Source: a virus
IMG/VR virus record: IMGVR_UViG_3300029286_002537
Span: 1-20,109 of that record
DNA: 20,109 nucleotides
Reading direction: 5' to 3' (one strand)
This document shows, one piece after another, positions 2,765 to 18,312 of this stretch (its first letter is position 1; every line of letters begins with the position of its first letter). A program made the position numbers and the translations under genes. Below the pieces are notes generated by a model, which saw nothing but the letters and a program-made list of their open reading frames with translations, had not been told where the DNA came from and did not search any database.

Positions 2765-3682
2765 ATGAAAAGAATCTTAATAGTCGAGGACACAGCATTA
2801 ATAGTCGTATTGGTTAAGGCAATATCGCAAAAAAACAATAATATCATTTGCGATATTGCAACCAATCTAAATGAAGCGGAGCAATTTATCGGGAAAAACG
2901 TCTATGATTACGTTCTTCTTGATTTATTTTTAGGCGGAGAATGGGGATTAAATATCGTCTCGAAATATAAAAATTTAAAGATAATTATAACAACTGCTAC
3001 CTCTAATCCCTCGCTTGAGAAAGAAATTCGTAGTTATAATAATATTATTGACTACATAATCAAACCTCTTGACTATAGAAAGTTATTGATGGATATAGTA
3101 GAAGAGAAATACGATAACATTCTAATAGAAAGGGATGAAGATATGGACAGAAATTCTAAACAATCGCAGAATGAATCATCATGTGCGGGACATAACAGCT
3201 TCGTTACGAGTATTAATAACTTTCACGAAGAGATGACAAAAAAAGTCAATGAGCTATGTGCCTGTGTTGAGGGTTTACAAAGAATGAAGATTACAAACGG
3301 TACGGAGCACGAATACACATTGCCTGAAGCAATATCTACATTAATGGAAGCGACAGCTGAGACGCGGGCGATACGCAATCTAGAAATAGTACAGAAAAAT
3401 AAACCGGGTTCAAGGTTAAGAGGATTCGCTCGCAGGTGGCTATATCCGCTTATTTCTTTTATTATTGCGTCTGTAGCCATTGGGTATTTAATGGATATAG
3501 TAAATGCTCAGGACGAGTTTAGAAATACCTTTACCGAGGTACGCAAGGAGATAGGCGGGGTTAAGGAAGTCATAGCGGTAGTCGTAGCAAAACAAGCGAT
3601 AGTATTCACATGGAAAGAACAGATTGATAAGAAAGTGGACAACCATTTAATCAACAATGATAAACAGAAAGAATTAAAATAA
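2765..3682 (+). CDS. Response-regulator receiver (REC) domain protein with C-terminal membrane helix
   Basis: Residues 1-115 form a receiver domain with the full phosphorylation site: acidic pair E8-D9, phospho-acceptor D53 in Y-V-L-L-D-L, T76/T77 at the end of strand 4, and K100-P101. Residues 120-220 are a polar, partly helical linker with no DNA-binding domain. A basic patch (R-R-W) leads into a hydrophobic helix at about 227-246, and a helical tail of about 60 residues follows. The layout suggests a cytoplasmic receiver tethered to the membrane by its C-terminus, which is unlike standard response regulators. An in-frame ATG at 3143 (residue 127), with AAAGG about ten bases upstream, could give a separate membrane protein without the receiver. 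The gene ends eight bases before portal. The receiver call is firm; the role, such as host signalling interference or a lysis/holin-like function, is unknown. Confidence 0.85.
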   Translation: MKRILIVEDTALIVVLVKAISQKNNNIICDIATNLNEAEQFIGKNVYDYVLLDLFLGGEWGLNIVSKYKNLKIIITTATSNPSLEKEIRSYNNIIDYIIKPLDYRKLLMDIVEEKYDNILIERDEDMDRNSKQSQNESSCAGHNSFVTSINNFHEEMTKKVNELCACVEGLQRMKITNGTEHEYTLPEAISTLMEATAETRAIRNLEIVQKNKPGSRLRGFARRWLYPLISFIIASVAIGYLMDIVNAQDEFRNTFTEVRKEIGGVKEVIAVVVAKQAIVFTWKEQIDKKVDNHLINNDKQKELK

Positions 3683-3690
3683 CAAATAAG

Positions 3691-5433
3691 ATGTCTGATA
3701 CACAAGGAAATAACACAAACCCAACACCTTTTATGGAGGAAATTGTTAATAATAACAAGGAACTCCTTAAAGAATTGGATGAAAGTAAGGATTTCAAGTC
3801 ATGGTATGAGACTATACAAAAGAGCGAGAAAGCTAACGCTTCCTTGAATCAAGATTTACTTTCTTTCTTGGTAGGTGATGAATGGATCCCGGGTGAACAA
3901 TCCGACGCTGATTTCACTTACTTGAATAACAGGTACCAAATGCCTTTTTCCAGTAAGATGTTAAGAAACGCAGGGAGAACGGAATCTGCAAGGTTAATTA
4001 AGAATACAAGGAGTTTACAATTTACTTCTTTTGGTAAACCCTCAAGCAAGAAATCCGAACCTGGATTAGTGGTTGAATTTGCCGATCCAAATTATAAACC
4101 AACGCAGATTGAGAAAGAGAATATAAGGCAGTTTACCTATCAAATGGTTGATAAATTCTTCTTTTGCCCATTTGAAGATGAAGGTAATTTAACAAAATGG
4201 CTTGGCGTAGCATATAATGATTTCTTCGACCTTGACGATATAACATTCGAGATTAGACGCACATTATCCGGGAAGCCCCTTGGATTCCATTTAACAGACC
4301 CTACGATTGTATATCATGTTATTCCAAAGGGCAGGAAATATCAAAGATGGGATTATAATGCTGATTCTTACTCAGAAAAAAGACCAAGAGATATAAGCAA
4401 AGAGATAAAATATGTACTTGAAAAAAACAACATAAGGGCGGCAGGCTTCACAAGAGATAAGATGATAAAATCACACTTCTTTATATCAAGTGACTTTATG
4501 ACGGCTTATCGAGGATATTCGATAGTTGAGCAAGGTATTCGGATGATATTAAATATTATGAACTCTATTACATACAACAGCTCGAATTTCAATAACAACC
4601 GTACACCAATGGGTATTTTCGCATTCACCGGCGGATTTACAAACAGAGTATTAACTGAACAGTTCAAGAAAGTGCTTTATTCATACTTATCAGGTGCAAA
4701 CAACAGATACAGACTACCGGTTATAGGGCTTCCTGAGAGAGGTGACGCGAAGTTTATACCGTTCAATATGAACTCAAGGGAAATGGAGTTCCACTTATGG
4801 ATGACATTACTCTTTACCATACTTTGTCAGCTCTCAGGTACAAACCCGGAAGAAATAAGTATGAGCTCGCATGAATCAGCCATGGTTGGAAAGAAATTAT
4901 TTGATACTTCGCCTGATGGTATATTACAAGTTTCAAAGGATAAAGGTTTAAACACATTTTTACGATATACAGAGACTATCATAAATAAAAGCGGCGTCTT
5001 GAAGCAAATGACAGGATATAATGTGGTCTGTAAATTCAACGGTCTTGAAGTCGAGGATGAAAGAGTAAAAGTTGAAGTAAAGAAGTCACTATTAGCTACT
5101 ACCAGAAGTTACAATGATATAATAGTAGAAGAAGGCGGAGAGCCGCAGAAAATAATGTTTGGCGATGTCAACATATATGACGTTAAAGGCGTTGATTCTC
5201 AGCAGATATTTGGCGCCTTGCAAGCAAGGATTCAGGCAATAGACGCCGAGAAACAGCAACTAATGGCTCAGCAACAACAGGGTATGGCTCCAGACGCTCA
5301 AGGTGGAGCTCAGGGCGGTTCACAAGCACAGCAAGGCAGTATGACAAAAAACGATAATAAACTTACAAGTAAATACGGGCAGCCGGAAAACAGTGGCACA
5401 AACAATAACGAAAGCAAGACTAATCAACAATAA
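3691..5433 (+). CDS. Phage portal protein
   Basis: At 580 residues this has the size and pattern of a portal, the dodecameric ring at the head vertex through which DNA passes. Portal-like signatures include a long alpha/beta body, the Y-R-G-Y-S-I-V-E-Q segment leading into the I-L-N-I-M-N helix (about 274-292), G-I-F-A-F-T-G-G-F (308-316), a conserved core near F-I-P-F-N-M (355-360), and T-N-P-E-E-I-S (384-390). The last 60 residues are Gln/Gly/Ser-rich and probably disordered. The ATG has no SD. It comes just before HNH and the large head genes, as expected for a head module. No terminase large subunit is next to it in this window. Confidence 0.87.
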   Translation: MSDTQGNNTNPTPFMEEIVNNNKELLKELDESKDFKSWYETIQKSEKANASLNQDLLSFLVGDEWIPGEQSDADFTYLNNRYQMPFSSKMLRNAGRTESARLIKNTRSLQFTSFGKPSSKKSEPGLVVEFADPNYKPTQIEKENIRQFTYQMVDKFFFCPFEDEGNLTKWLGVAYNDFFDLDDITFEIRRTLSGKPLGFHLTDPTIVYHVIPKGRKYQRWDYNADSYSEKRPRDISKEIKYVLEKNNIRAAGFTRDKMIKSHFFISSDFMTAYRGYSIVEQGIRMILNIMNSITYNSSNFNNNRTPMGIFAFTGGFTNRVLTEQFKKVLYSYLSGANNRYRLPVIGLPERGDAKFIPFNMNSREMEFHLWMTLLFTILCQLSGTNPEEISMSSHESAMVGKKLFDTSPDGILQVSKDKGLNTFLRYTETIINKSGVLKQMTGYNVVCKFNGLEVEDERVKVEVKKSLLATTRSYNDIIVEEGGEPQKIMFGDVNIYDVKGVDSQQIFGALQARIQAIDAEKQQLMAQQQQGMAPDAQGGAQGGSQAQQGSMTKNDNKLTSKYGQPENSGTNNNESKTNQQ

Positions 5434-5599: not shown

Positions 5600-5829
5600 G
5601 AGATGAAAGGAAATGCACAAGGTGCGGAAGTAAAAGTTCTTTATCAATACATCATATAGTTAATAATACAAAAATGAACAGAAAATTATATGGGAACGAA
5701 AGAGTACAGGATTTGAGCAATTCCTGTTTAGTATGCCAAGGATGCCACGATAAACATTCTTCCTGGGATCAGGATTTAAGGAAAAACTTAATTAAAAAAT
5801 GGAAAATTGAGATTAGCAGTCAGGGATAA
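5539..5829 (+). CDS. HNH endonuclease domain, no standard start codon
   Basis: The frame is open from 5539 (after TAA 5536-5538) to TAA 5827-5829 and encodes an HNH nuclease. It shows R-E-E-I-W-I-R-D, a C-x-x-C pair (C26, C29 counting from 5539), the H-H-I-V core (H38-H39), D-L-S-N, and a second C-x-x-C followed at once by His (C-Q-G-C-H). HNH proteins near portal and terminase genes are common and either assist packaging or are homing nucleases. There is no ATG, GTG, TTG or CTG before the core motif, so it needs a -1 frameshift from the upstream ORF, an unusual ATT/ATC start at 5539 or 5542 (GGGGG lies at 5529-5533), or it is a frameshift mutant. The last 23 bases overlap the next gene. Confidence 0.82.
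   Translation: MISTVKKETFSREAREEIWIRDERKCTRCGSKSSLSIHHIVNNTKMNRKLYGNERVQDLSNSCLVCQGCHDKHSSWDQDLRKNLIKKWKIEISSQG
5554..5588 (+). promoter_or_regulatory. Candidate -1 programmed ribosomal frameshift site
   Basis: The heptamer A-AAA-AAG (5554-5560) is read in the zero frame as TTA AAA AAG, the same slippery sequence and phase as in E. coli dnaX. Five bases later an 8-bp stem (5566-5573 with 5581-5588, one G-U pair) closes a 7-base loop. Slipping back one base continues with GAA ACA TTT, which is the HNH frame. Slippery site, spacing, hairpin and a downstream domain with no start codon all agree. Confidence 0.6.
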
Positions 5830-8800
5830 AGTTGAAACGCCAAGAGGTTTCGGCGAAATAAAAGAAACCGCGGATACTATAGCTCTCGTTCAGTTAGGAG
5901 ACGAAGAGAAAGTTTTCTATTTAACTGATTTAAAACCAGTTTCCGAACTTGAATATGTTATGAAGTCACTTGATAACTTAGGAATAGAGCTTGAGGGAAA
6001 AAGAACTCAAAATACAGAGTTAGCCAAATCTTTTTTTGAAAGGATTGAGAAATCATTAGGCGATGAAGAAGAGATTAAAAAGCTCAAAACATCTTTTTAT
6101 AAGAAGGAAACACCTAAAGCATCAGTCCCGCAAACTCCGAGTGCAGTAACAACCCCTAAAAGTCCGGGCGAGATAGAAGTAAACAAGGTAAAGATATCGC
6201 CAAACAAACCACCGGTAGTATCCACAAGTATTATTCCTCCGGGCAGTAAACCGCCAGTTGCTCCAACAGTAACTAAAGAGCCAACGGGGACACCAGCCCC
6301 TCAACCGCCGACGGGGACTATTTCTATAAATAAACCACAAAAAACCGAGCCAATCAATAAACCCGAAGCAAGTCCTTATGGACTCAAGCCATTTCAGGTG
6401 CCAAAAACAGGGAATAGCGATATTAAGGATTTTGATAAAGAGGCATTTGATATGACAAAAAATGTGCCGGATAAACCCGTTAGTAAACCCGGCGCCTTGA
6501 GAAAGATATGGAATAACCTCAAGGGTTCAGGTTCGGAAGATGTAAAGAAGAAACCGGTAAATAATAATGTATTGGATTTAGACACTGGGAAAGTAAGTCG
6601 TCTTGACCAATCGAGGGAAGTACCTTCTACAGCTCACACACTAACTCATATTTCCTTAAACCAAAATGCAAGGTCAGACGATGAGAAATTAAACTATCAC
6701 TATAAGATAGGAAACAAGGCTAATGCTAAAGTTAGTACATATCCTCTTGACGCAAAAGGTAAACCGACATTCGATAAACACCCTGCTATGCAAGGCAAAA
6801 CATTCCTTCCCGGAGAGAAAATAAAACATCAGGGCAAACCATATACAGTGCATTCTCATATTAATCCAATGCCTGATGCAAATGGACAGGTAGATTACAA
6901 TAAAATGTTAATACAAGACGAAAACGGGAATAAATTTTCGGTTAATAGGGCAAATGTTGAGCATATAGGCACAGATTTTAGCACAGCAAAACAAGTACAA
7001 CTTGAAGACGGCACAAAGAAATATCATCATCAATTAAAAAAAGGCGATAAGATTGTACATAAAGGTACCGCACACGAAGTAGTCGGACCTGGCGATAAAG
7101 GATATTTAACCGAAAGCGATAAGGGAGAGTTGCACTATACCTTCGCTAAAGATTATGATAAGAACTTCAAGCATAACGAATATGACAGAAACAAAAAAGC
7201 GGTAAAAGATGATATTGTAGAATTTGAGCATTTAGGTACAAAGAAACAACGCAGAGTAACAAACGACCACCCTGATGGCGCCATAGTACAGATTAATAAA
7301 TCAGACGATCCAATACTCGTTCCTCACGGACAATACAGCTTTACAGGGAAAAGAGGCTTTATGGAACACCCTGATTTAAAAGACAAGAAAAAAGGTAAAG
7401 AGATTGATACGAGTCAGGGACCAATGCCGGCAGAGAGCATTAGCGAAAAAATGGCAGCCTCGGATGAATTTAAAACAGGCAATACGCTTGATAAGTTCAC
7501 AGGAGCCGATAAGAAATCTCATAGGAAACAACAGATTAATGATAATCATTTTGTCCATTCTTTAGGTATGAAAGGCGAGGATGGCGAGGTAAAAATCCAC
7601 AGTGATAAGAACGGTTCAATATCTCATATAGAGAATCCGTTTATCAAAATACATGGAGAACTGCATAAAATCTTAGGTGTTAGCCCGGAAAAAGGCACAA
7701 TAACAATGGTACCTTATAAAAAGGGTAAAACTCCCGCAGTAAACGAGAAAACAGGGATGCACAAAGGTCAAGAGACATATAACCTTACCGACTTGAGGGA
7801 AAGTCAAAATATGCAACCGATTATAAAAGAAAACGTGCAAAAAACCGGGGAAGGGAACTTAAAAGGCAAACTCTTGAGTGATGTTGCTAAGGCACATAAA
7901 GACAGCGGAGTAACAGACTCTAATGATATAGGTAATGAAACAAATGCTACGGCTAATAACCATATAGCATTATCAAAGAAATTACTTGAAGGCGATGAAG
8001 CTATTTTGAAGAAGCATCAGGATAGTAAAAACAAAATAACACGCGGCGATAATCTTTTCGAAAGGGACGATTACGAGCCGTCGAGCCTTAATAAAAACAA
8101 GAAATACACGGATATCTTGAAAGAAGAATTAGGCGATGACTGGAAGAATCAAGTTAGTGGTAAAGTCAAGGAAAATATAGCCCATGAAGAGGGAACCAAA
8201 AAAATTGAAGAAAATAATGCTAAGAATGCTAAAAGCCTTGCGGACAGATACCAAAAACAAAACACGAACCAACTATCCGAAAAATCTGCTAATTACGTAG
8301 AATATACTAAGAAAAACAAGCCCCTTGAAATGCACTTGGGCAAAGAGGGCAAAGCTGCCGCTTCGTGGTCTAAACACCATAATCTACCATTTAATTTTAC
8401 TGTAGTGGACGCTTCCGATCTAACAGCTTCCCATCGTCCAAAGTTTGACGAAAAAGGGGTGCCCAAAATGCAAGAACCTTACGAATGGAATAAAGACTAT
8501 CCCCCCGAGATGCAGAATAGAAACTATCATGGAAAGGACGAGAAGGCTTATGCCGACAGAAAAATAATAGAAGAGAGAGTAAAAGATTTCAGACCGAGTA
8601 TGGTTATTAATGGAACGGAAGATGCTTCAACTGGGGCTCCTTTTGTTGATCCTCACGGCAGAGCAATCAATAATAGTCGTGTATTAGCTTCGATGCTTTT
8701 GCCGCAGGAAAAAGTAGAAGAAATGAGAACCGAGCTGCTAAAACAGTTACCCCAGTATTACGATAACCCGGAGAACTTAAAAAAAGCTGAAGATATAGTT

Positions 8801-9682
8801 AAAGTTCCAATACTTGTTAGGAGAACCAAACAGGCATATCACGAGAATCCGGATATGTATAATGCGCTCGCGGGAGACTTTAACAAAAGCAGTCTAACTA
8901 ATGAGAGCGCAAAGGAAAAAGCAAGCGGTATAGTAAATAGTGCAGGGCAGAAAGCAACAAACGAAGCATTCAATATCATAGGCGCGACTCCGATCAATAC
9001 AAACATGGCTGCCGAAAAGGTTGCCCTACTCAAAAAATGGTCGGAGAAAAACAACCCTAAAGATGTGACAACTCATTATGAGGGTGGGAAACTAACAGAC
9101 GAAGCTGTGGGCTTCTGGAAAAAATTTATGGCACATTCATATTTTAGAGACGAAAAAGCATCGGACACAATAAAAACACTTGGAGAAGAAGGTAAAAATA
9201 TAATGTCGAAAATTGGGAATTTGCACCAGCATCTTAATCCTTTAAAAACCTCACTAAGTGGAGATTTACATGACGATATAGTAAAATATCTTGCAGATAA
9301 AGCGTCCGAGAAAAAAAACCTGCCAGGTCAGCAAAATTTTGTACATAAAGAGACAAATGTATCGAAGGCTCTCGACAAGATATTCTTTGACGACTCAATA
9401 TCAAATAACGACTTAGACGAGCATTTAAAGAAATATGCCGATAGGATGAGGGGCTACGACGATACTAAAAACCAAGCTTCTATCTTTGCAACCAACACGC
9501 CAGAACAAGAGAAAGAATTAGTAATGGGGAAAATGTTAAGCGAGATAAAGAAGGAAGTTGCTGACGAGGAATCAAGGCAAAAAATTGAAGCAAGAAAACT
9601 AAAGAAATCCTTCTTTCATATTGGTCAATATAAACTTGAATATCCGGAAAAACCAAAAATCATCTTATTAAAGGCTAAATGA
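5807..9682 (+). CDS. Giant (1291 aa) polyvalent-type protein with SH3-like barrels and a DdrB-type ParB domain
   Basis: The TTG start at 5807 is the only one that keeps the first domain; the frame is closed by TAA just upstream and the first ATG is at 5960. Residues 3-45 look like a small SH3/KOW-like barrel. Residues 105-200 are a Pro/Lys/Thr-rich linker. Three more barrel-like segments follow at about 330-387, 408-450 and 465-514. Residues about 863-1050 resemble the DdrB-like ParB domain: V-D-A-S-D-L-T-A-S-H-R-P, Y-P-P-E-M-Q-N-R, G-A-P-F-V-D-P-H-G-R and I-N-N-S-R-V-L-A. DdrB is a phage P1 defence (Dar) protein packaged in the head, and this domain recurs in polyvalent proteins injected with DNA. 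A 22-residue tail follows the last K-S-F-F at 1267-1270. Packaging and ejection are inference. Its TGA overlaps the next ATG by four bases. Confidence 0.8.
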   Translation: MRLAVRDKVETPRGFGEIKETADTIALVQLGDEEKVFYLTDLKPVSELEYVMKSLDNLGIELEGKRTQNTELAKSFFERIEKSLGDEEEIKKLKTSFYKKETPKASVPQTPSAVTTPKSPGEIEVNKVKISPNKPPVVSTSIIPPGSKPPVAPTVTKEPTGTPAPQPPTGTISINKPQKTEPINKPEASPYGLKPFQVPKTGNSDIKDFDKEAFDMTKNVPDKPVSKPGALRKIWNNLKGSGSEDVKKKPVNNNVLDLDTGKVSRLDQSREVPSTAHTLTHISLNQNARSDDEKLNYHYKIGNKANAKVSTYPLDAKGKPTFDKHPAMQGKTFLPGEKIKHQGKPYTVHSHINPMPDANGQVDYNKMLIQDENGNKFSVNRANVEHIGTDFSTAKQVQLEDGTKKYHHQLKKGDKIVHKGTAHEVVGPGDKGYLTESDKGELHYTFAKDYDKNFKHNEYDRNKKAVKDDIVEFEHLGTKKQRRVTNDHPDGAIVQINKSDDPILVPHGQYSFTGKRGFMEHPDLKDKKKGKEIDTSQGPMPAESISEKMAASDEFKTGNTLDKFTGADKKSHRKQQINDNHFVHSLGMKGEDGEVKIHSDKNGSISHIENPFIKIHGELHKILGVSPEKGTITMVPYKKGKTPAVNEKTGMHKGQETYNLTDLRESQNMQPIIKENVQKTGEGNLKGKLLSDVAKAHKDSGVTDSNDIGNETNATANNHIALSKKLLEGDEAILKKHQDSKNKITRGDNLFERDDYEPSSLNKNKKYTDILKEELGDDWKNQVSGKVKENIAHEEGTKKIEENNAKNAKSLADRYQKQNTNQLSEKSANYVEYTKKNKPLEMHLGKEGKAAASWSKHHNLPFNFTVVDASDLTASHRPKFDEKGVPKMQEPYEWNKDYPPEMQNRNYHGKDEKAYADRKIIEERVKDFRPSMVINGTEDASTGAPFVDPHGRAINNSRVLASMLLPQEKVEEMRTELLKQLPQYYDNPENLKKAEDIVKVPILVRRTKQAYHENPDMYNALAGDFNKSSLTNESAKEKASGIVNSAGQKATNEAFNIIGATPINTNMAAEKVALLKKWSEKNNPKDVTTHYEGGKLTDEAVGFWKKFMAHSYFRDEKASDTIKTLGEEGKNIMSKIGNLHQHLNPLKTSLSGDLHDDIVKYLADKASEKKNLPGQQNFVHKETNVSKALDKIFFDDSISNNDLDEHLKKYADRMRGYDDTKNQASIFATNTPEQEKELVMGKMLSEIKKEVADEESRQKIEARKLKKSFFHIGQYKLEYPEKPKIILLKAK

Positions 9683-10746
9683 AGACACTGAAATTAATCA
9701 AGAGTTATTATAGCGATGAAGCGGCTAAGGAGTTTCAGGCAAAAAAAGTTAATAAACTATCAAAGACTCTTGAAAAAACTATTAACCTTGGCAAACCAGC
9801 CGCCCAGAGTAAATTATTCTCGCATCCCGCTGATGAATTATACGAGAAATATCCAAATCTTTTTAAACAGGCTATAAAGCCGAAGCACAAGACTTCATTC
9901 GCGTTATTATTTAGTACATTAGGCAGAAAAGATTTAAATGGCATGGAAAATCCGGATGCTTTACACAAGGAAATGCTTGAGGTCGGCGGCGGTGAAGGAG
10001 CGCCCTTCCTGCAAAAAGCGGATGGTTTACACCGGTTTCAAACAAAAGCATATAAACACCCCGCGGTAGAGTCTCAAGGCATTGTTTTGCCCTCGGATCA
10101 TAATATAAACGAATATAGCGATAGGGCTGATAAAAATAAAAACTGGCAAGACAAATACAGCACATTAGGAAAATCAATCAGTGATGAAGATAATGAAGAT
10201 ATGATTGCATCTATAGCTGTAATGACAGGCGGAGAGATACTTATCGGTAAGCGCATAGATTGCGGTCTCTATACTCTTCCAGGAGGTCACGCGAAACAAG
10301 GCGAAAATATTATCGAAGCCGCCTTGAGAGAATTGCGAGAGGAAACAGGAATAAAAGCTAGACAGGAAGATTTAGTCTATCTTGGGCACGAGAGAGTAAC
10401 TCCGAGAGAAGGCGGTAAAATCACAGTACACTCATTCCTCTTGAACGAAAAAGAGAAAACCAATACTTCGCATGATCCTGACGAAGAAGTTGATAGATGG
10501 GAATGGATTGACGTAAAAAACGGATTACCAAAGCATATACTTAACAACTTACATGCAAAGAAGAATATAACACTTCGCATGTTGGATTTACAGCCATTTG
10601 AAGATGAGATAAAAAAGAGCTTTTTCAACCCCCTTGAGCTTACAGGCGATATGGAAGAATTTGATTTACCTTCAGCAAGCGAAGGTTTAACAGAAGCATT
10701 TAATAAGATAAAGAAAATTTTCGATAAACTGAAAACAGCGGTATAA
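9679..10746 (+). CDS. Nudix hydrolase-domain protein in the head module
   Basis: The ATG overlaps the previous stop (ATGA), so translation is coupled. The first 170 residues are basic and lack a recognised fold. A Nudix domain follows at about 174-300, with a perfect box (G-x5-E-x7-REUxEExGU) from G203 to I225, including E209, R217-E218 and E221-E222 for metal binding and catalysis. Nudix enzymes cleave nucleoside diphosphates linked to another group, such as dNTPs, ADP-ribose, NAD or capped RNA; the substrate cannot be read here. After the domain comes E-I-K-K-S-F-F at 310-316 and a 40-residue acidic tail. A Nudix fused to flanking segments that share a motif with its giant neighbours suggests a virion-packaged enzyme acting early in infection, which is inference. 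Confidence 0.88.
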   Translation: MKTLKLIKSYYSDEAAKEFQAKKVNKLSKTLEKTINLGKPAAQSKLFSHPADELYEKYPNLFKQAIKPKHKTSFALLFSTLGRKDLNGMENPDALHKEMLEVGGGEGAPFLQKADGLHRFQTKAYKHPAVESQGIVLPSDHNINEYSDRADKNKNWQDKYSTLGKSISDEDNEDMIASIAVMTGGEILIGKRIDCGLYTLPGGHAKQGENIIEAALRELREETGIKARQEDLVYLGHERVTPREGGKITVHSFLLNEKEKTNTSHDPDEEVDRWEWIDVKNGLPKHILNNLHAKKNITLRMLDLQPFEDEIKKSFFNPLELTGDMEEFDLPSASEGLTEAFNKIKKIFDKLKTAV

Positions 10747-10747
10747 A

Positions 10748-13700
10748 ATGAAAACATTAACAGAACTATTTAAGTCGGTAGAAGGCGAAGCCGGCGGCAA
10801 TGAAGTTGACTTAATGAAAAAGTTCGGAGACTTACATCATTCCGTTAAAAGCGAATACTCCGCACTCTACAAAAAGATGAGTAATCAAGGCATGGATAAA
10901 CTACCGCCTGAACATCAAGCGAAGATTAAAAAGGTCAATGAATACCTTCAGGGAAAAGCCGATTTAGAGTCTGTACATGACCATTACGGGGTAAAGCAAG
11001 AACCAGATGTCGCTCATATAAAGACCGGCACTTATGGTAAAAACTACGTATTTACTCCACAAGTAGAGAAAGGTAAAGTCTCTCTAATTGGCACGAAGAA
11101 AAACGATAAAGAGGGGATTGCCTCGAAAAGAGGAATGGACAGTTTATTCGGAGATATTGGCAGTTCAGTGGAGCACGAGCCAAAAGAAAAAAGATTAGGC
11201 AAGGACTTCGATGCAGTTAAGAAGTATCTAACAAATAACCCTGACGTCCAAAATAATCTGACCTCAAGCAGAACAGGAAAGGCGAACTTAAAAAAAGTAT
11301 ATGGCGAAGAAGGATTAAACGCGCTTATACCTCCCGAAGAAGTAAAGAAAAAACAGGGATTACCGCCGTCTCGCATAGACGAAGCCCAAAAGAAAATCGA
11401 CCAGATGAATAAATTCTCAAACATACAGATGGTTGATCCAAAAATTAATCCTCCTGCGGGAATAAAACCAAAGATTACGATAGAACAATTAAAAGGTGAT
11501 AAACCCGAGGATAGATTGAGTATGAAAAGATGGAGTAAAATAAAAGACTCGACTAAAGAAGTAAGAGACCATTATAGTCATTTAACGAACCTTGCGAGAG
11601 ACGGGACATTAAGAGAAGAACACAAAGAAACACTCGGAAAATATCACGACTACGCTGATGGTAAAATCAGTTCCGAGGATTTACGGAACCACTTAAATAT
11701 AAAAACAGTCTCTAATAAAGAGGAAGAGCAAGCGAAATTAGACAAGCAATATAAAATGCAGAATCTTACCAAACCTGCAAAAGAACTTCATCAAAGGTTA
11801 ATAGGTCTTGAAAAGTATGGGATTGCAGGCGAAGGTAACAGAAATACATTAGCAAAATTCGACGATTATGCCGACGGTAAAATAGGGCATGATGAGTTAA
11901 AACAACACTTGAACGAAACTCACTTCAAGGATAATCCGTTAAATGCAATCCACGAAAGCGAGATAAAAAAATCTTTTTTCTCCTTATCCCCGCTGTCCAA
12001 ATCCGTTGATTCCGGGGGAAGCCAATTAAGTATATTTGAACAACCGAAGAAAGCAGCTAAACTTATTTCGAACAAAACCCCGAGTATAGACACGGGCAGT
12101 AAACCCAAACAGATGACAATAATGGATATGCCGGGTATGAAAAGGGCGGAAAATATGGCAATATTGCATCCTGATATAAAGAGTCGCCATAAGGCATTAA
12201 CTTCGAAGGTAAAGAGCGGGGAACCCCTTGAAAAACACGAGCAAGAGTCCCTTGATAACATAAACGGTTATCTTGACGGCAATGGTAAGATAACAAAGCA
12301 TTCGGACCTTAAAAAACATTTCGGTATTCAAGACTCCGCAGCCGACAGTAACAAATTAGCTGCTGAGATTAAAGACGGTAAATATCATTACAAAGGCGGT
12401 AGTACAGACTTATTCGGTCAGGAACATATGGGTAAAATGCTTGCGCCTTATGTTACACACAGAGAGTTCCTTGACAATCCTAAACCAGAGCACAAAGAAC
12501 TTGCAGACCAAATAAAGGAAATGCACAATGGAGACGAAACTGCAATACGAGAACATTTCAATAATACGATTGGCAGATATAAACATCATACCGAAAAACC
12601 TAATGGACTACCGGATGAGCGACATACACTTATGAATCATGAAAAGTTCAAAGATTCTCCGGAACATGGGTTAGTTGACGGTTTAGAGGAAAAGCACAGG
12701 AGAGAAATGGATGAGTTAGGTACAGGTGATAAATTCGCGGATGCGGTTATTAACTCGGACAGTACTTACTTGAAACCGGGCGAACATGATCCTGGTAAAC
12801 CTACAGTATCGAATGGACTCTTGAGCTATTTAAGAAAATACAAAGCCGACCACATGAATCCCGAGGAAAAAGCAAATAGACAAAAAAGGACATGGTCTAT
12901 GTTCAAGGATAACAGTTGGGATAAGGATAATCTTAAACGATTTTACGAATTTCCGACAACATCTAACAGACAAGAAGCAAGTACAGAGGTATCTGACAAC
13001 GAAAAAACATATTCAAGTAAAGCACAAAAACAACTATTTGATAATAGGAAAAAATATATCGACAATAAAATAAGCCGTCCGCTTTATGAGTCAAAGCGTG
13101 ACTACATAAAAACGAAAGCAAGTGGTGAAGCCACCGAAGAACAAGAACAATTAAAGCATAGAAAAGACCCTATTAAACATAGAGACTATGATACAGAAGT
13201 AAAGGGGAATTATAAACAAGGGGATACTATCAATTACGCGGGACAAAATCACCAAATTGATAATGTTACGGGCAATATAGCGTTTGCGACGGGTGATGAC
13301 AGCAGACAGCGTCGGATAAAACTTGCCGATATTGAGAACCTAAAACACGAAGATTATACACCTGATATTCACAGCACAGCGTTTAAGAAGTTACTTCATG
13401 GCGGCACGGAAGAGAAGGATCTCGATAAATACTTAACCGAACCGAAAGCCTCGCTTGTAAAGCACCTTGAAAGTCTTGGATTTAATGAAGAAGAAAGACA
13501 GAAAATCCACAATTACTTAAACGGGACTAAACCTAACGAATTTAGACACGAAAAAGGGCAGAAAGCTAAAAAAAGACTTACTGCCAAAGACGAAGCAGAT
13601 ACATCTGAGGCTAAAAACCAAGCCATAAAAGACTCGCTTAGGGTTGATGAAGGGACACTCGGTTCAGGCAATACCAACGATGACGACGAGGAAAGAAATA

Positions 13701-14719
13701 CGCTTTCGTTAGATGAGTTAGATGCTATAAATAACTCAGACGACCCGAATATACTTAAAGAGAAAGATATTCTCGATATGTTAGGCAAACACGATACAGA
13801 CCGGTCCAAAGAAGTTCACGCTAATGCCGTTAATGAACACAATAAGAACCGTAAAGAGTACGAAGAGGTAATACAAAATCACGCAGACCACCTCAATAAG
13901 GTATTCCACCCTCATGCGAATAAAGACTATAAAAACCAAATGGAGGAAGCTACGAATAAACTGAATAGTTTACCAGAACATTTAAGAAACAAATTCCAGC
14001 ATATTTACGACGATATTCATCCAATGAAAACAATTTCAGAGAAAACTGTGCTCGACCATTTAGACCAAGGTGATACAAACGCACTAACCCCTGAGCATAT
14101 AGCTAAAAGGATAGGTATTAAACTTGATCCGCCGGAAAAGAAGAAAGGTAAAGAGACTCTAAATGCACATGCTGAAAAAGAGATTATGAATCATTTAATG
14201 TCTTTATATGGTAAAGGAATTGCGGTATTAGGTCGGGATAAGACAGGTAAAGCCAGAGCTTCTTTAAGTTCAAATGTTTTACGAGAGGCTCTCAAAAAAT
14301 CATTTGGCGTACTTACACAGACCGGTGATTATATTAAGGGCAAACTTAAAAATATTATGAGCCTTAAACTAATTAAAGCACAAGAAATGACATTCCAGAA
14401 AGAAATCGAGATGCTCGTGAAGTCTTTCGGACCGAGAGACCTCTGGGATGAAGTAGATAGCACAAGAGCGCGAGCGCGGAGAGAACTCAACCAAATCCTC
14501 GAACTTTCGGAAGAAAAAGTAGAAGATTCAGCTTATACTAAGATTATAAAGTCATTTGAAGTTGACACATATATATTCGGAGAGCTTCTTTTACAGAAAG
14601 ACCGCATAATGAAAAGCGCAGAATTTGCGGAATATGAAAAAATACTACCGGAGCCGGCTTTATCATTTGATGATGACGGAAAACCAATGCTTGTGTATAT
14701 TGACCCTTTGGAAACTTAA
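10748..14719 (+). CDS. Giant (1323 aa) repeat protein, probable internal head or ejected protein
   Basis: It begins one base after the previous stop and has no catalytic domain I can recognise. It is very rich in Lys, Asp, Glu, His and Asn. Four copies of a helical module lie at about 25-85, 263-320, 338-392 and 470-530, each with a hydrophobic helix, E-H or similar, then Y-x-D/x-G-K and H-L or H-F-G. Residues 821-867 resemble the SH3-like barrels of the 1291-residue protein. Residues 975-1010 are very acidic. The C-terminal 150 residues are helical with three K-S-F motifs (1184-1186, 1225-1227, 1268-1270); another K-S-F-F at 408-411 ends the third module and looks like an old fusion joint. 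Position between portal and capsid genes, composition and motifs point to a capsid-internal or ejected protein. That role is inference. Confidence 0.75.
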   Translation: MKTLTELFKSVEGEAGGNEVDLMKKFGDLHHSVKSEYSALYKKMSNQGMDKLPPEHQAKIKKVNEYLQGKADLESVHDHYGVKQEPDVAHIKTGTYGKNYVFTPQVEKGKVSLIGTKKNDKEGIASKRGMDSLFGDIGSSVEHEPKEKRLGKDFDAVKKYLTNNPDVQNNLTSSRTGKANLKKVYGEEGLNALIPPEEVKKKQGLPPSRIDEAQKKIDQMNKFSNIQMVDPKINPPAGIKPKITIEQLKGDKPEDRLSMKRWSKIKDSTKEVRDHYSHLTNLARDGTLREEHKETLGKYHDYADGKISSEDLRNHLNIKTVSNKEEEQAKLDKQYKMQNLTKPAKELHQRLIGLEKYGIAGEGNRNTLAKFDDYADGKIGHDELKQHLNETHFKDNPLNAIHESEIKKSFFSLSPLSKSVDSGGSQLSIFEQPKKAAKLISNKTPSIDTGSKPKQMTIMDMPGMKRAENMAILHPDIKSRHKALTSKVKSGEPLEKHEQESLDNINGYLDGNGKITKHSDLKKHFGIQDSAADSNKLAAEIKDGKYHYKGGSTDLFGQEHMGKMLAPYVTHREFLDNPKPEHKELADQIKEMHNGDETAIREHFNNTIGRYKHHTEKPNGLPDERHTLMNHEKFKDSPEHGLVDGLEEKHRREMDELGTGDKFADAVINSDSTYLKPGEHDPGKPTVSNGLLSYLRKYKADHMNPEEKANRQKRTWSMFKDNSWDKDNLKRFYEFPTTSNRQEASTEVSDNEKTYSSKAQKQLFDNRKKYIDNKISRPLYESKRDYIKTKASGEATEEQEQLKHRKDPIKHRDYDTEVKGNYKQGDTINYAGQNHQIDNVTGNIAFATGDDSRQRRIKLADIENLKHEDYTPDIHSTAFKKLLHGGTEEKDLDKYLTEPKASLVKHLESLGFNEEERQKIHNYLNGTKPNEFRHEKGQKAKKRLTAKDEADTSEAKNQAIKDSLRVDEGTLGSGNTNDDDEERNTLSLDELDAINNSDDPNILKEKDILDMLGKHDTDRSKEVHANAVNEHNKNRKEYEEVIQNHADHLNKVFHPHANKDYKNQMEEATNKLNSLPEHLRNKFQHIYDDIHPMKTISEKTVLDHLDQGDTNALTPEHIAKRIGIKLDPPEKKKGKETLNAHAEKEIMNHLMSLYGKGIAVLGRDKTGKARASLSSNVLREALKKSFGVLTQTGDYIKGKLKNIMSLKLIKAQEMTFQKEIEMLVKSFGPRDLWDEVDSTRARARRELNQILELSEEKVEDSAYTKIIKSFEVDTYIFGELLLQKDRIMKSAEFAEYEKILPEPALSFDDDGKPMLVYIDPLET
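10820..12337 (+). repeat. Four-copy protein repeat within the 1323-residue protein
   Basis: The span encodes four diverged copies of a 55-60 residue helical module at residues about 25-85, 263-320, 338-392 and 470-530. Copies 2 and 3 are closest and share D-Y-A-D-G-K-I and a following L-x-x-H-L. Copies 1 and 4 keep Y-L-Q-G-K and Y-L-D-G-N-G-K-I with a terminal H-Y-G or H-F-G. The similarity is at protein level; the DNA has diverged, so this is an old duplication. Confidence 0.65.
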
Positions 14720-14730
14720 TTAACAAAACA

Positions 14731-15105
14731 ATGACAAAAATACTTAAAATTCAGCAACCGAAAAGAATGGATTACGAAGAACTTGCAAAATCATTTGCTA
14801 CAGAAGACCGAATGAGTTTCCAGATGGGAAAGAACACTGATGAAGTCATAGGTCGAATAAACAAGTTTACGTCTTTCATTAAGGAACTTAATAACGAAGA
14901 ACTCTTGAAAAAGGGGAAACAGTTACAAACGGCTATTAAAGCAATTAACACCGGCATATCCAATCAGATGAAATCGTTTTTAGCCGCAAAGCAACCGCAT
15001 AAACTATTCAGTGACCCCTTGATGAGCAGGGTAGTAATGGCAAAAGGGTTACTGTCAGTCCAGCTTGAAGAAATAACTAACGAATTAGCGAGCCGTGGAG
15101 TATAA
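14731..15105 (+). CDS. Small helical head-module protein, unknown, 124 residues
   Basis: The ATG at 14731 follows an A-rich leader without SD, 11 bases after the giant gene. The protein is predicted helical, with E-L-A-K-S-F at 17-22 (the motif shared by its neighbours), a long helix at about 35-75 and a final amphipathic helix. No membrane segment or enzyme motif is visible and I recognise no family. Its stop lies inside the start of the next gene (11-base overlap). Placement before the protease suggests a minor head or scaffold-associated part. Confidence 0.7.
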   Translation: MTKILKIQQPKRMDYEELAKSFATEDRMSFQMGKNTDEVIGRINKFTSFIKELNNEELLKKGKQLQTAIKAINTGISNQMKSFLAAKQPHKLFSDPLMSRVVMAKGLLSVQLEEITNELASRGV

Positions 15106-15355
15106 GAACGGCTCACATATAACCCCTGAGCACCTAGAGCTACTTAACCTTCTCGGGAAAGAGAAAGTTGAAGAAGTAATCAAAATTATGGGGGCGCGGA
15201 AGTTTACACTAAAACCCCTTCTATATCACATAAAATGCTTTGAAATAAAGAAAGCAATAGAAACCACAAATAAGACCTTTGAAGAAATTGCAAGGGAAAA
15301 CTCCGTTTCAACAAAAACCATCCAACGAATAATTAAACTCAAAAACAAGATTTAA
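15095..15355 (+). CDS. Helix-turn-helix protein (Mor-like), 86 residues
   Basis: A GTG start at 15095 overlaps the previous gene by 11 bases. The protein has two helical parts: residues 10-50, and a helix-turn-helix at about 60-80 (T-F-E-E-I-A-R-E-N-S-V-S-T-K-T-I-Q-R-I-I). The second half resembles the C-terminal part of Mor/C-type phage late activators or simple recombinase-type HTHs. It probably binds DNA. Lying just before the 90-base intergenic region and the protease-capsid genes, it could control them. The first methionine is uncertain, since no SD is clear. Confidence 0.7.
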   Translation: MEYKNGSHITPEHLELLNLLGKEKVEEVIKIMGARKFTLKPLLYHIKCFEIKKAIETTNKTFEEIARENSVSTKTIQRIIKLKNKI

Positions 15356-15445
15356 GCAACCCTTTCACTTTTGGACTGACCCCTATTGTTTTGTCCACCT
15401 GCACTCTGGTATTTTTGTAACATAGAAAACCAGACAAAAATATAA
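15356..15445 (+). promoter_or_regulatory. Intergenic region with overlapping inverted repeats before the protease gene
   Basis: Three inverted repeats are visible. TGGAC 15372-15376 pairs with GTCCA 15393-15397. TCTGGT 15405-15410 pairs with ACCAGA 15429-15434. TATTTTTGT 15410-15418 pairs with ACAAAAATA 15434-15442. The last two share bases and cannot form together, so they could switch or serve as an operator. I found no convincing -35/-10 pair at proper spacing and no SD before ATG 15446. A role in controlling capsid genes, perhaps by the upstream HTH protein, is only inference. Confidence 0.35.
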
Positions 15446-16834
15446 ATGCCAGAATCTTTTTCATTTTATGCTCCAATAATAGACTTTGAGAAAAGCCATG
15501 CACATAATCCGGCGGCTGGCGTAGTTGACGTTAAACTTAGTTGTTTAATCTCAAGCGATAGGGAAGATTTTGATAAAGACGTTATAAGTCAAGACGGTTT
15601 AATCTTCGATTTATGGAAGCAAGGTTACGGCAGGGTAAAATACGAGCATAATAAAGATCCTAAATATTTTATAGGGTATCCAGTATCCGTTATGAGAAAA
15701 GGACATTCAACACATGCAGAAGCCCGAATCTTCGCTAAACAGGGTACACCACAATACGAAATAGCCACTCAATGTATCGGCGATCTTGAAAACATGAAAG
15801 CATTCAACGAAGCACATCCGGAAAGTCCTAAAAGGATGGGAATAAGCGTCGAGGGTGGCATTTTAGCCAGAAAAGGAAAACACGTATCAAGTTCGGTAAT
15901 AACCAACATAGTAATCACAGCCAACCCCCGGAATCCGGATACTTATGCCAATTTAGTAAAGTCATTCGAGGCTGGAGCATCGGTTAATGGTTGCGATATG
16001 ACAGGCGGCGAATCCGGAAGAAAACAATATCTATCAGGAAGTCACAAAAATCAAACAATAGGAGTAAAATTAATGGGTAAATTCAATTCCAAGGAAGAAG
16101 TAGCAAAATACTTCGCCACTCAAGGATATTCCGAAGCTGATGCAAAGGCAAAAGCTGAAGAATGGGAATCCGCGAGAAACAAAACGACAGCAAGAGACAA
16201 AAGTCTTGAAAAGTCGTTTGAAATCATTGACTCAGCAATGGAGAACATATCCGCACTTGTAGAGTCTCTTGAAAAGAATAAAAGTATCGTAGCTCTTGAA
16301 AAGTCCTTCGAAACAAACGTAAATGCGGTATCGAGTCACGAGAATGTTGACGTTGTACCATTTATGAAAGCCATTGGCGGCAGTTCTCTTGAACTACAGA
16401 AGTCAATGACAGCGCAAAATACCGAAATATCCAAAATGTTCGGTATAACCCTCGGTATGATAAAGGCAAGCATGGAATTAACAAAGTCCGTATCAGAGGA
16501 TCTCTCGAAAGTCACAGAATATGCCGAAACCCTCATCGAGGAAAACGAATCATTAAAAAAGTCCCTTGAAAACATTGATACCGGGATAATTACAGACGGT
16601 ACCAAATTAGCAGCGGCTAAACTTGCAGGGAAACAGCCGGGCGAAGGTGATGCACCGCCAGCACTCAGTAAAAAGCAAGCAAAGAACTATCTGAGAAAAA
16701 GTTTCGAAGACGCCGGTGACGATGCAACAAAAAGACAGTACTACAGCACGGCTTTAACAATGGTCGAAACTCACGGTATTGAAACACTTAATAAGTCATT
16801 AATTGACGAAATCACCGATTCAATCAAGAAATAA
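15446..16834 (+). CDS. Prohead serine protease with C-terminal scaffold domain
   Basis: Residues 20-170 match the HK97-type prohead protease fold: the catalytic His in V-K-Y-E-H-N-K-D-P (H68), the catalytic Ser in M-G-I-S-V-E-G-G (S134), and a terminal strand with V-I-T-A-N-P that usually closes the domain. The enzyme matures the shell by cleaving scaffold and capsid N-termini, then itself. From about 210 on the protein is helical, charged and coiled-coil-like, as expected of a scaffold, with K-S-F-E at 172-175, 256-259, 286-289 and 418-421. Residues 172-198 align without gaps with capsid residues 29-55. An in-frame ATG at 16073 with its own SD probably gives the scaffold alone. The capsid gene follows 56 bases downstream. 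Confidence 0.9.
   Translation: MPESFSFYAPIIDFEKSHAHNPAAGVVDVKLSCLISSDREDFDKDVISQDGLIFDLWKQGYGRVKYEHNKDPKYFIGYPVSVMRKGHSTHAEARIFAKQGTPQYEIATQCIGDLENMKAFNEAHPESPKRMGISVEGGILARKGKHVSSSVITNIVITANPRNPDTYANLVKSFEAGASVNGCDMTGGESGRKQYLSGSHKNQTIGVKLMGKFNSKEEVAKYFATQGYSEADAKAKAEEWESARNKTTARDKSLEKSFEIIDSAMENISALVESLEKNKSIVALEKSFETNVNAVSSHENVDVVPFMKAIGGSSLELQKSMTAQNTEISKMFGITLGMIKASMELTKSVSEDLSKVTEYAETLIEENESLKKSLENIDTGIITDGTKLAAAKLAGKQPGEGDAPPALSKKQAKNYLRKSFEDAGDDATKRQYYSTALTMVETHGIETLNKSLIDEITDSIKK
16060..16075 (+). promoter_or_regulatory. Internal ribosome binding site for a separate scaffold
   Basis: AGGAG at 16060-16064 lies eight bases before ATG 16073, inside the protease-scaffold frame. It is as good an SD as that of the capsid gene (AGGAG 16880-16884), while most genes here have none. 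The ATG falls just after the protease domain and the 27-residue segment shared with the capsid protein. Confidence 0.65.
16073..16834 (+). CDS. Nested in-frame scaffolding protein (253 residues)
   Basis: An in-frame start at residue 210 of the protease gene would yield the scaffold domain alone. Lambda does the same (Nu3 inside C), and several related phages have such nested scaffolds. Evidence: AGGAG at the right distance, the ATG at the domain boundary, and a C-terminal part that is almost entirely helical and charged, as scaffolds are. The product begins M-G-K-F-N-S-K-E-E-V and holds three of the four K-S-F-E motifs of the gene. It would be made in excess over the protease and removed during maturation; the excess is inferred from SD strength. 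Confidence 0.6.
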   Translation: MGKFNSKEEVAKYFATQGYSEADAKAKAEEWESARNKTTARDKSLEKSFEIIDSAMENISALVESLEKNKSIVALEKSFETNVNAVSSHENVDVVPFMKAIGGSSLELQKSMTAQNTEISKMFGITLGMIKASMELTKSVSEDLSKVTEYAETLIEENESLKKSLENIDTGIITDGTKLAAAKLAGKQPGEGDAPPALSKKQAKNYLRKSFEDAGDDATKRQYYSTALTMVETHGIETLNKSLIDEITDSIKK

Positions 16835-16890: not shown

Positions 16891-18312
16891 ATGGAAGTAT
16901 TAAATCCCGGTTCATTAACCGATCATGATGGACTTAGCAGTTCTGATAGCTTAAGTCTAATCATGGAAATCCAGAAGGCTTTTGAAGCTGGTCATGATTA
17001 CGACATGGCATCATTGACAGGCGGTCAAGCGGGCAGAGTCCAGTCCCTTGAAGGCACATTCAAAGTCATCACTTTCGAGGAAAGAGCAGCGTCATTCTGG
17101 CAGAAATGCCCCAAACAAAAAGTCACCAGTACAGTTCTCGAATGGTCGAGAATCAATGAAGTCGCAGGAATGGTATTCTACCCTGAAGGCGGCGATGTTG
17201 ACGAAACAAACGATGTCATGGACAGAAAGTTCGATATCGTGAAATTCGCGGGCGTAAAAGGTTCGGTAACTTTCGGTGCGAAATCAGTAAAAATGATACA
17301 AGCTGCGGAAATAACAGAAACCAAGAATAAAACAAGATCAATGGTCCGGAGTCTCGACCTTGCTTTATGGAATGCAAACTCTGCAATCAATGCTTATGAA
17401 TTTGACGGAGTAATCACGCAGGTAAAAGCAAACATGAAAAACCCGGCACAAGGTATTCTTGATAAACGCGGTTCGAGAATAACAGATGCCGATATCTTGA
17501 ATGCAACAACTTGCATCAAATCAAACTACGGTTACGGCGAATTAAGACTGTGGATGTCACTCGATGCAGTCAACGGTTACGTACAAGAGAAGATTTTAAA
17601 TAAAATGTACTATACAAACGCCGGTGGTACAAAAGACCTGAGCCCAACAGACCAGGACTTCTCGTCTTTCAGGGTTGCTAATGGTTCGGGTAAAGTTGAA
17701 GAAGATGTATTTATGAGAGCGGAAAGCGCCGTCTTGAACAGAATCTTAACTTCAACATACGCCGCATTCCAAAAGAATCACGTTATTGGTCCGGATGCAC
17801 CAACTGCTGTAATAACGGCAGAAACTTCAGACGGTACTTACTCACTTGCTAACGGCTCGTATAAATACGCAGTTGTACCCGAAAATCAATACGGTGAAGG
17901 TTTAGCATACGAATGCTCAATCACACATTCCGGTGGCAGCAAGATGACAAAACTCGTAATAACCAGAGCAGGAACTGGCGATTTAGCAACGGGATATAAA
18001 GTATATCGTTGCGCCGGTACCTCAACAGACAAAAGGGATTTCTATTTAGTCGAGAGATTCGTATCAGGGGGAGCTACAACAACATGGTACGATAAAAACG
18101 ATCACATCCCGGGAACAACGACTGCTGTAATGATGGAATGGAATGCCGACCAAACATTCGTTGTCTCGCAACTTGCAGATATGATGAAACTGCCTTATGG
18201 AATCCGTTCAGATAAGAAAGAATGGTTACAAAAGGTTTATCTCGTACCGCAGGTATTCAATCCTAACAGATTCTATATATTCGAAAATGTAGGAATGTTA
18301 GCAAATTCGTAA
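16891..18312 (+). CDS. Major capsid protein with inserted Ig/Fn3-like domain
   Basis: The AGGAG at 16880-16884 sets the ATG, six bases downstream. The product (473 residues) has the size and layout of an HK97-fold capsid protein: an N-terminal arm, an alpha/beta body at about 60-295, and a C-terminal body strand and helix at about 415-473. Residues about 301-410 form a separate beta-rich insertion with G-S-Y-K-Y-A-V-V and T-G-Y-K-V-Y-R, typical of Ig- or Fn3-like modules that decorate capsids. The N-terminus holds K-A-F-E-A-G (29-34) and T-G-G-Q-A-G-R (43-49), shared with the protease, and may be a processed delta domain. It lies next to the protease-scaffold gene, the classic order. A hairpin just downstream may trim or stabilise its mRNA. 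Confidence 0.88.
   Translation: MEVLNPGSLTDHDGLSSSDSLSLIMEIQKAFEAGHDYDMASLTGGQAGRVQSLEGTFKVITFEERAASFWQKCPKQKVTSTVLEWSRINEVAGMVFYPEGGDVDETNDVMDRKFDIVKFAGVKGSVTFGAKSVKMIQAAEITETKNKTRSMVRSLDLALWNANSAINAYEFDGVITQVKANMKNPAQGILDKRGSRITDADILNATTCIKSNYGYGELRLWMSLDAVNGYVQEKILNKMYYTNAGGTKDLSPTDQDFSSFRVANGSGKVEEDVFMRAESAVLNRILTSTYAAFQKNHVIGPDAPTAVITAETSDGTYSLANGSYKYAVVPENQYGEGLAYECSITHSGGSKMTKLVITRAGTGDLATGYKVYRCAGTSTDKRDFYLVERFVSGGATTTWYDKNDHIPGTTTAVMMEWNADQTFVVSQLADMMKLPYGIRSDKKEWLQKVYLVPQVFNPNRFYIFENVGMLANS

Follow-up and report, generated by a model that had tools for sequence, protein, structure and literature searches.

The window analysed here is a viral record of 20,109 bases from IMG/VR (IMGVR_UViG_3300029286_002537), in which the end of a diversity-generating retroelement is followed by a head module running from the portal to the major capsid protein. 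A short motif centred on lysine, h-x-K/[SA]-h (h, hydrophobic residue; the slash marks the proposed bond), recurs in the proteins of this module. We read it, with a probability of roughly 0.83, as the site that an SPO1-type prohead maturation protease, encoded by the phage itself, would recognise and cut, between the lysine and the serine or alanine. The genes and features concerned are listed below (aa, amino acids).

3691..5433, + strand: portal protein (phrog_11117, 4.5e-21), with zero copies of [LIVM]xKSF; upstream border of the module
5807..9682, + strand: gp1291, polyvalent-type protein with a DdrB-like ParB domain at aa 857-1007 (PF18763, 5.1e-7, over the cut-off); candidate cuts K53/S, K74/SFF, K82/SL, K1187/A and K1267/SFF
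9679..10746, + strand: Nudix protein of 355 aa with its Nudix domain at aa 180-282 (PF00293, 5.2e-17); candidate cuts K8/SYY, K165/SIS and K313/SFF
10748..14719, + strand: gp1323, with four helical-type repeats of about 60 aa (comparison with shuffles); seven candidate cuts by motif, K9, K408, K418, K1184, K1225, K1268 and K1289
14731..15105, + strand: gp124, with a candidate 20-aa N-terminal propeptide ending ELAK/SFATED (motif site and homologue in a relative)
15095-15355: gp86, between the gp124 and protease genes
15446..16834, + strand: prohead protease (aa 1-172) fused to a scaffold (aa 173-462) (phrog_1028 head maturation protease, 6e-14); candidate cuts K172/SF, K256/SF, K286/SF, K308/A (weak), K319/SM, K347/SV, K372/SL, K418/SF and K450/SL
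15953..16048, + strand: copy of the capsid N-terminal arm inside the protease-scaffold protein, aa 171-201, K172/SFEAGASVNGCDMTGGESGRKQYLSGSHK (local alignment)
16891..18312, + strand: major capsid protein of the SPO1 gp6.1 type (phrog_752, 8e-58; PDB 9vel Gp6.1, 9e-25, phmmer), with predicted cut K29/A30
16975..16980, + strand: codons of the predicted scissile K29/A30 pair, IQK/AFEAGHD (invariance of K29 in capsid proteins)

Searches by tblastn with the capsid protein matched SPO1, Bacteroides DAC phages, Morganella Mecenats66, Pseudomonas Touem01, Leptospira LE1 and others, and those with the protease matched SPO1 gp3.2 and proteases of Lactobacillus and Staphylococcus phages; a search of the PDB with the protease gave zero matches. 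The protease gene lies between those of the portal and the major capsid protein, as in tailed-phage prohead proteases. Comparison of 11 proteases showed that S134 and K172 are invariant, K172 being the end of the protease domain, and that a histidine is found in the matching segment of all 11 (H68 in the window), where the alignment is off by a few columns. From its position in G-[FI]-S-[IV]-E-G, S134 is likely the catalytic serine. The enzyme, homologous to SPO1 gp3.2 and phrog_1028, is probably a protease of the serine/histidine type and would cleave the head proteins of this phage.

Counts of the strict motif [LIVM]xKSF in seven head-module proteins (4,114 aa) gave 12 copies against 0.21 expected, a number attained by none of 2,000 composition shuffles, and the wider form [LIVM]xKS[FLMYVI] gave 22 against 1.77. 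The remaining open reading frames (ORFs) of the window (portal, reverse transcriptase and others, 2,215 aa) held no copy of the strict motif (0.12 expected). An earlier note on this DNA had listed 12 KSF copies and, in the capsid protein, the variant IQKAFE; all were located in the proteins it named, but the motif is broader and more frequent than the note had it: with L/I/V/M at P3, K at P1, S or A at P1' and F/L/I/V/M/Y at P2', there are about 27 candidate sites. Among these 27, P1' is serine in 23 and alanine in four, and P2' is phenylalanine in 13 and another hydrophobic residue in the others. The additional copies include LIK/SYY at the N-terminus of the Nudix protein, LFK/SVE at that of gp1323, LGK/SIS just before the Nudix domain, and more in the scaffold. 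None of the 27 sites falls inside a recognised domain (5.3 expected, P=0.0026), in agreement with the earlier claim that copies lie at domain borders or near termini. The copies use varied codons (all six for serine, both for lysine, and TTA, CTN and ATN), which shows that the motif is kept at the protein level and rules out a repeat at the DNA level.

The capsid copy, EIQK/AFEAGHD, links the motif to known cut positions. The lysine at K29 is shared by all nine diverged capsid proteins compared; it stands in their N-terminal arm, at residues 16-53, and is followed by S or A. In the GenBank record of Listeria phage A511 the mature capsid peptide is annotated as starting at residue 24, QEDALK/SFTTGYG, and a tail-sheath peptide as starting at residue 2. 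The capsid annotation is said to go back to N-terminal sequencing by Loessner and Scherer in 1995, which the tail-sheath annotation fits. PDB chain 9row_B ('Major capsid protein'), which is very similar to the A511 protein and which we take from its naming to be that of Staphylococcus phage 812, begins SFQTGYG, corresponding to A511 residue 24, and the full-length relative in PDB 5lii reads VVKSFQTGYG at this place. The gp5 protein of HK97 is cut at K103/S104 (PMC10275583), within TFNK/SLGS, and PDB 1ohg starts at residue 104. The cut positions of A511, 9row and HK97 therefore indicate that h-x-K/S-h is a prohead-protease site in the capsid family of the window and in HK97. The passages searched in publications on CKA15, JS1, Bc431v3, AVP and jumbo capsids contained no cut-site data. 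In nine SPO1-type phages the protease, scaffold and capsid genes together had 42 motif copies against 3.1 expected, and the other genes 23 against 22.4; the SPO1 scaffold gp3.3 has eight. Of the two functions that the earlier note had offered, a prohead-protease site or a capsid-targeting peptide, the first is strongly supported by the coincidence of the capsid copy with the mature N-terminus of its homologues and by the density of the motif in SPO1-type scaffolds.

The second function, a docking or capsid-targeting peptide that is bound by the scaffold or shell and is itself uncut, is quite unlikely. Copies do stand near the N-termini of gp124, the Nudix protein and gp1323 and near C-termini, and the internal proteins of T4 require N-terminal targeting peptides of about 10 residues (PMC9026906). 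However, the best-conserved letters, K and S/A, are the exact scissile pair of A511, the 9row chain and HK97, and eight scaffold copies about 30 residues apart fit fragmentation better. The motif can also serve both roles: in T4 the targeting peptide contains the cut site and gp21 removes it (PMC9026906). Targeting alone need not be invoked to account for the motif, although the terminal peptides that would be removed here may well target as they do in T4. The N-terminal peptides MKTLTELFK/ and MKTLKLIK/ of the window, like MESLFK/ and MKLLLIK/ in its relative, have the form of T4 capsid-targeting sequences, a likeness of form only.

We then compared the window with its sole close relative found, G001 (IMGVR_UViG_3300048803_000071, 92,782 bases), which was retrieved with a degenerate pattern for KAFEAGH. 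Its ORFs were called mechanically, without annotation, and the motif was fixed before counting. G001 has the same gene order, with a capsid protein 61% and a portal 64% identical to those of the window. The strict motif occurred nine times in its head module (4,308 aa) and twice in its other ORFs (24,542 aa; Fisher 1.5e-6), and the wider motif 22 and 10 times, respectively (Fisher 9e-12), the counts elsewhere being those of chance. Equal frequency in unrelated proteins, which the earlier note had named as evidence against its proposal, was therefore not found. The K-S or K-A core was identical at 17 of the 26 aligned window sites, compared with 16.5% of all dipeptides (Fisher 4e-8), and with 4 of 48 for KS and KA pairs outside the motif. 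In the scaffold part, each of the eight K-S sites is kept while the intervening residues vary, and so are K53, K74 and K1267 of gp1291, K9 and K1268 of gp1323, and K165 and K313 of the Nudix protein, which flank the Nudix domain in both phages. The gp124 homologue, with 27-28% overall identity, reads LMIK/SFASED at the same column. K8/SYY of the Nudix protein was counted as not conserved; MAFFT sets it against a different segment of the G001 protein, and local alignment leaves its placement ambiguous. The G001 Nudix homologue itself (ORF 39336-41300, 654 aa) has extra N- and C-terminal parts, and its internal MKTLIIKKKEVVKK/SF stretch resembles a former start, which hints at a gene fusion at a cut site.

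Further relatives were sought without success. Searches of viral contigs with the single sequences of the capsid protein, the protease and gp1323 gave no matches, nor did tblastn of gp1323 and gp1291 against phage records; the pattern KSFEAGY gave unrelated matches only, and pair-alignment searches of viral and genome contigs added no relative.

These comparisons make it extremely improbable that the motif reflects chance or a helix or coiled-coil composition bias of lysine-rich proteins. The proteins are rich in lysine and the scaffold part is predicted, at low confidence, to be helical, but shuffles that preserve composition never attained the count, the lysine-rich non-head proteins of G001 were at chance, and conservation of the non-motif KS and KA pairs equal to that of the motif was tested and not seen. 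Structures predicted by AlphaFold2 for the protease-scaffold protein and the G001 gp1323 homologue were poor (mean predicted local distance difference test scores of 43 and 41, predicted template-modelling scores of 0.26 and 0.21) and carry no weight.

Several points count against the reading. The A511 and 812-type evidence covers the capsid position only, and HK97 is a distant family member; cutting in the window's own proteins is predicted from sequence, and the presence of gp1291 and gp1323 in virions is putative. The KSF copies at K408 and K1184 of gp1323 lie in stretches missing from G001. The giant proteins of other SPO1-type phages (MA9V-3, Mecenats66 and LE1) show no enrichment, accessory genes having seven copies against 5.1 expected, so that cutting of cargo would be a trait of this lineage and not general. 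The lack of enrichment in giant accessory proteins also speaks for a rival reading, in which only the capsid, protease and scaffold are cut and the copies in the large proteins are remnants or have another role. We consider this unlikely, as gp1291 (2 copies against 0.06 expected) and gp1323 (4 against 0.06) are each enriched alone, and G001 retains sites in them although identity is only about 30%.

The protein gp1291 is a large multidomain protein with a DdrB-like ParB domain (PF18763, above the gathering score) near late genes, and is on these grounds of the polyvalent type; Pfam did not detect PF18763 in its G001 homologue. No significant Pfam or PHROG family, hence no recognised polyvalent domain, was found in gp1323, and Pfam gave zero matches to a metallopeptidase (MPTase) self-processing domain in either protein. 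The helical-type repeats of gp1323 (aa 21-84, 257-324, 336-394 and 465-532), of which five of the six pairs exceed nearly all shuffles, belong to no Pfam family. Just downstream of its K418/SV site stand QLSIF (aa 426-430) and QMTIM (aa 455-459), and the G001 homologue has QLSLF (aa 225-229) downstream of K217/AI. These peptides resemble QL[SD]LF, a motif for binding the bacterial sliding clamp.

The protease carries a second link to the capsid. Directly after K172/S the protease-scaffold protein reads K/SFEAGASVNGCDMTGGESGRKQYLSGSHK where the capsid protein reads K/AFEAGHDYDMASLTGGQAGRVQSLEGTFK, a copy that spans about 30 residues. Its local alignment score in the window was 71, against a shuffle mean of 30, and none of 1,000 shuffles equalled it. 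In seven of the 11 phages compared (the window, G001, SPO1, A511, PMS3, Touem01 and Mecenats66) the arm copy beat 1,000 of 1,000 shuffles; it was weak in DAC19 and, by the same local alignment, absent in MA9V-3, LE1 and one gut phage, and is thus not universal. The phage's own arm was the best match in six of the seven cases, and the true pairing was the best of 5,040 permutations, a comparison that ignores kinship. For three phages (SPO1, Touem01 and A511), the copy resembles the capsid arm of the same phage more than it does the copy in any other phage; this suggests that copy and arm co-evolve and do not merely share descent. No description of an arm copy in the protease was found in the literature searched, which covered little subscription literature. 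In HK97, gp4 (3348-4025) has AAMK/SVDG at residue 159 after the protease domain, in the place of K172 here.

The arm copy is probably an element for encapsidation or self-processing. The protease of SPN3US appears to need a C-terminal propeptide for entry into the prohead (PMC7411985), which makes a recruiting role a natural guess; a built-in pseudo-substrate is an alternative. We tentatively propose, as a possibility short of an even chance, that the copy, which stands just after the self-cleavage lysine and would evolve in step with the arm, lets the protease enter the capsid lattice, or acts as a pseudo-substrate that holds the protease off until the shell closes, and that in this lineage the cut code spread into giant polyvalent proteins, which would be polyproteins matured by the capsid clock and not by a built-in metallopeptidase.

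If the motif is the protease site, the protease would be enclosed in the prohead together with the scaffold and cargo, and would release itself from the scaffold by cutting at K172. Scaffold peptides of about 25-46 residues, the first of 84, would result from cuts at K256, K286, K319, K347, K372, K418 and K450, and cutting at all sites would leave pieces of 11-84 residues; by inference from T4 and HK97, these would be small enough to exit the shell. The cut at K29 would remove a 29-aa propeptide and mature the capsid protein. Among the cargo, the Nudix protein would release an enzyme of about 148 aa (residues 166-313) by cuts at K165 and K313, gp1291 would lose N-terminal pieces and a C-terminal tail of 24 aa, and gp1323 would be shortened by nine residues at the N-terminus and by about 140 at the C-terminus and be split at 408/418, between the third and fourth repeats. 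Removal of the peptides MKTLTELFK/ and MKTLKLIK/ would parallel that of the capsid-targeting sequences in T4, and gp124 would be trimmed in the prohead like the other cargo. Once processed, the cargo would be ejected along with the DNA. Cutting in this phage and the packaging and ejection of the cargo are what we infer from the sequences.

Several neighbouring features were also recorded. The gp86 protein shows a weak helix-turn-helix match, and its G001 homologue has ILK/SFPN near the N-terminus. Just upstream of the portal gene, 2765-3682 encodes a protein of 305 aa with a response-regulator receiver domain (PF00072, 1.7e-11) and a hydrophobic stretch, which is unusual in a phage. The diversity-generating retroelement (1-312, 781-902 and 1056-2087) looks complete: a variable repeat (181-302) lies at the 3' end of a truncated ORF, the template repeat (781-902) is 89% identical to it over 122 nucleotides with all 13 mismatches at template adenines, and the reverse transcriptase is at 1056-2087 (RVT_1, 5.4e-22).

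Prohead proteases that cut after Glu are already known from T4 and phiKZ-like phages, where their substrates are the capsid protein, the scaffold and ejection proteins packaged in the head; Pro of P1 is known to cut DarA, and HK97 and A511 to cut at K/S. What appears to be new is a K/S cut code over two proteins of about 1300 residues, a Nudix enzyme and a small head-module protein in a lineage of two metagenomic phages. A readable code, h-x-K/[SA]-h, for heads of the SPO1, A511 and K type, which include widely used therapy phages, would make processed and packaged proteins predictable from sequence. Beside built-in peptidases, it would also offer a second possible way of dividing very large cargo proteins of phages into functional parts, with head maturation setting the time. 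How a protease comes to enter the prohead is described as open for T4 and SPN3US (PMC9026906, PMC7411985), and the arm copy would give a concrete and testable answer.

Among known systems, HK97 gp4 and gp5 resemble the window phage in the K103/S104 cut with a hydrophobic P2' (TFNK/SLGS) and in AAMK/SVDG after the protease domain of gp4. However, HK97 cuts the scaffold domain of its capsid protein and has no large internal cargo, whereas the window phage has a scaffold fused to the protease and cargo genes that bear sites. Phages of the SPO1, A511 and K type (Herelleviridae) share homologous portal, protease and capsid proteins, the DALK/SF N-terminus of A511 and the motif-rich gp3.3 of SPO1, but their scaffold gene is separate, and SPO1, A511 and PMS3 have no polyvalent proteins of about 1300 aa between portal and protease. 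In T4, a single protease, gp21, cuts the scaffold, the capsid and packaged ejection proteins such as the internal proteins and Alt, and short N-terminal targeting peptides are removed (PMC9026906, PMC5694885); the T4 cut logo and A-x-E/ of SPN3US place the cut after Glu, whereas that of the window phage would be after Lys. The proteases gp175 of phiKZ and gp245 of SPN3US likewise process several cargo or ejection proteins, and a C-terminal propeptide of the protease has been proposed to target it to the prohead (PMC5694885, PMC7411985, PMC10052503), but they cut after S-x-E or A-x-E, act on unrelated giant-phage cargo and remove long propeptides. The polyvalent proteins, with DdrB and DarA of P1, share the DdrB-like ParB domain next to late genes and, for DarA, cutting by the prohead protease Pro (PMC5512222, PMC12810830). 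For polyvalent proteins with such domains, packaging and splitting by a built-in metallopeptidase have been proposed (PMC5512222, Iyer et al. 2017); in gp1291 and gp1323, where Pfam detects no metallopeptidase domain, the division would fall to the protease of the head.

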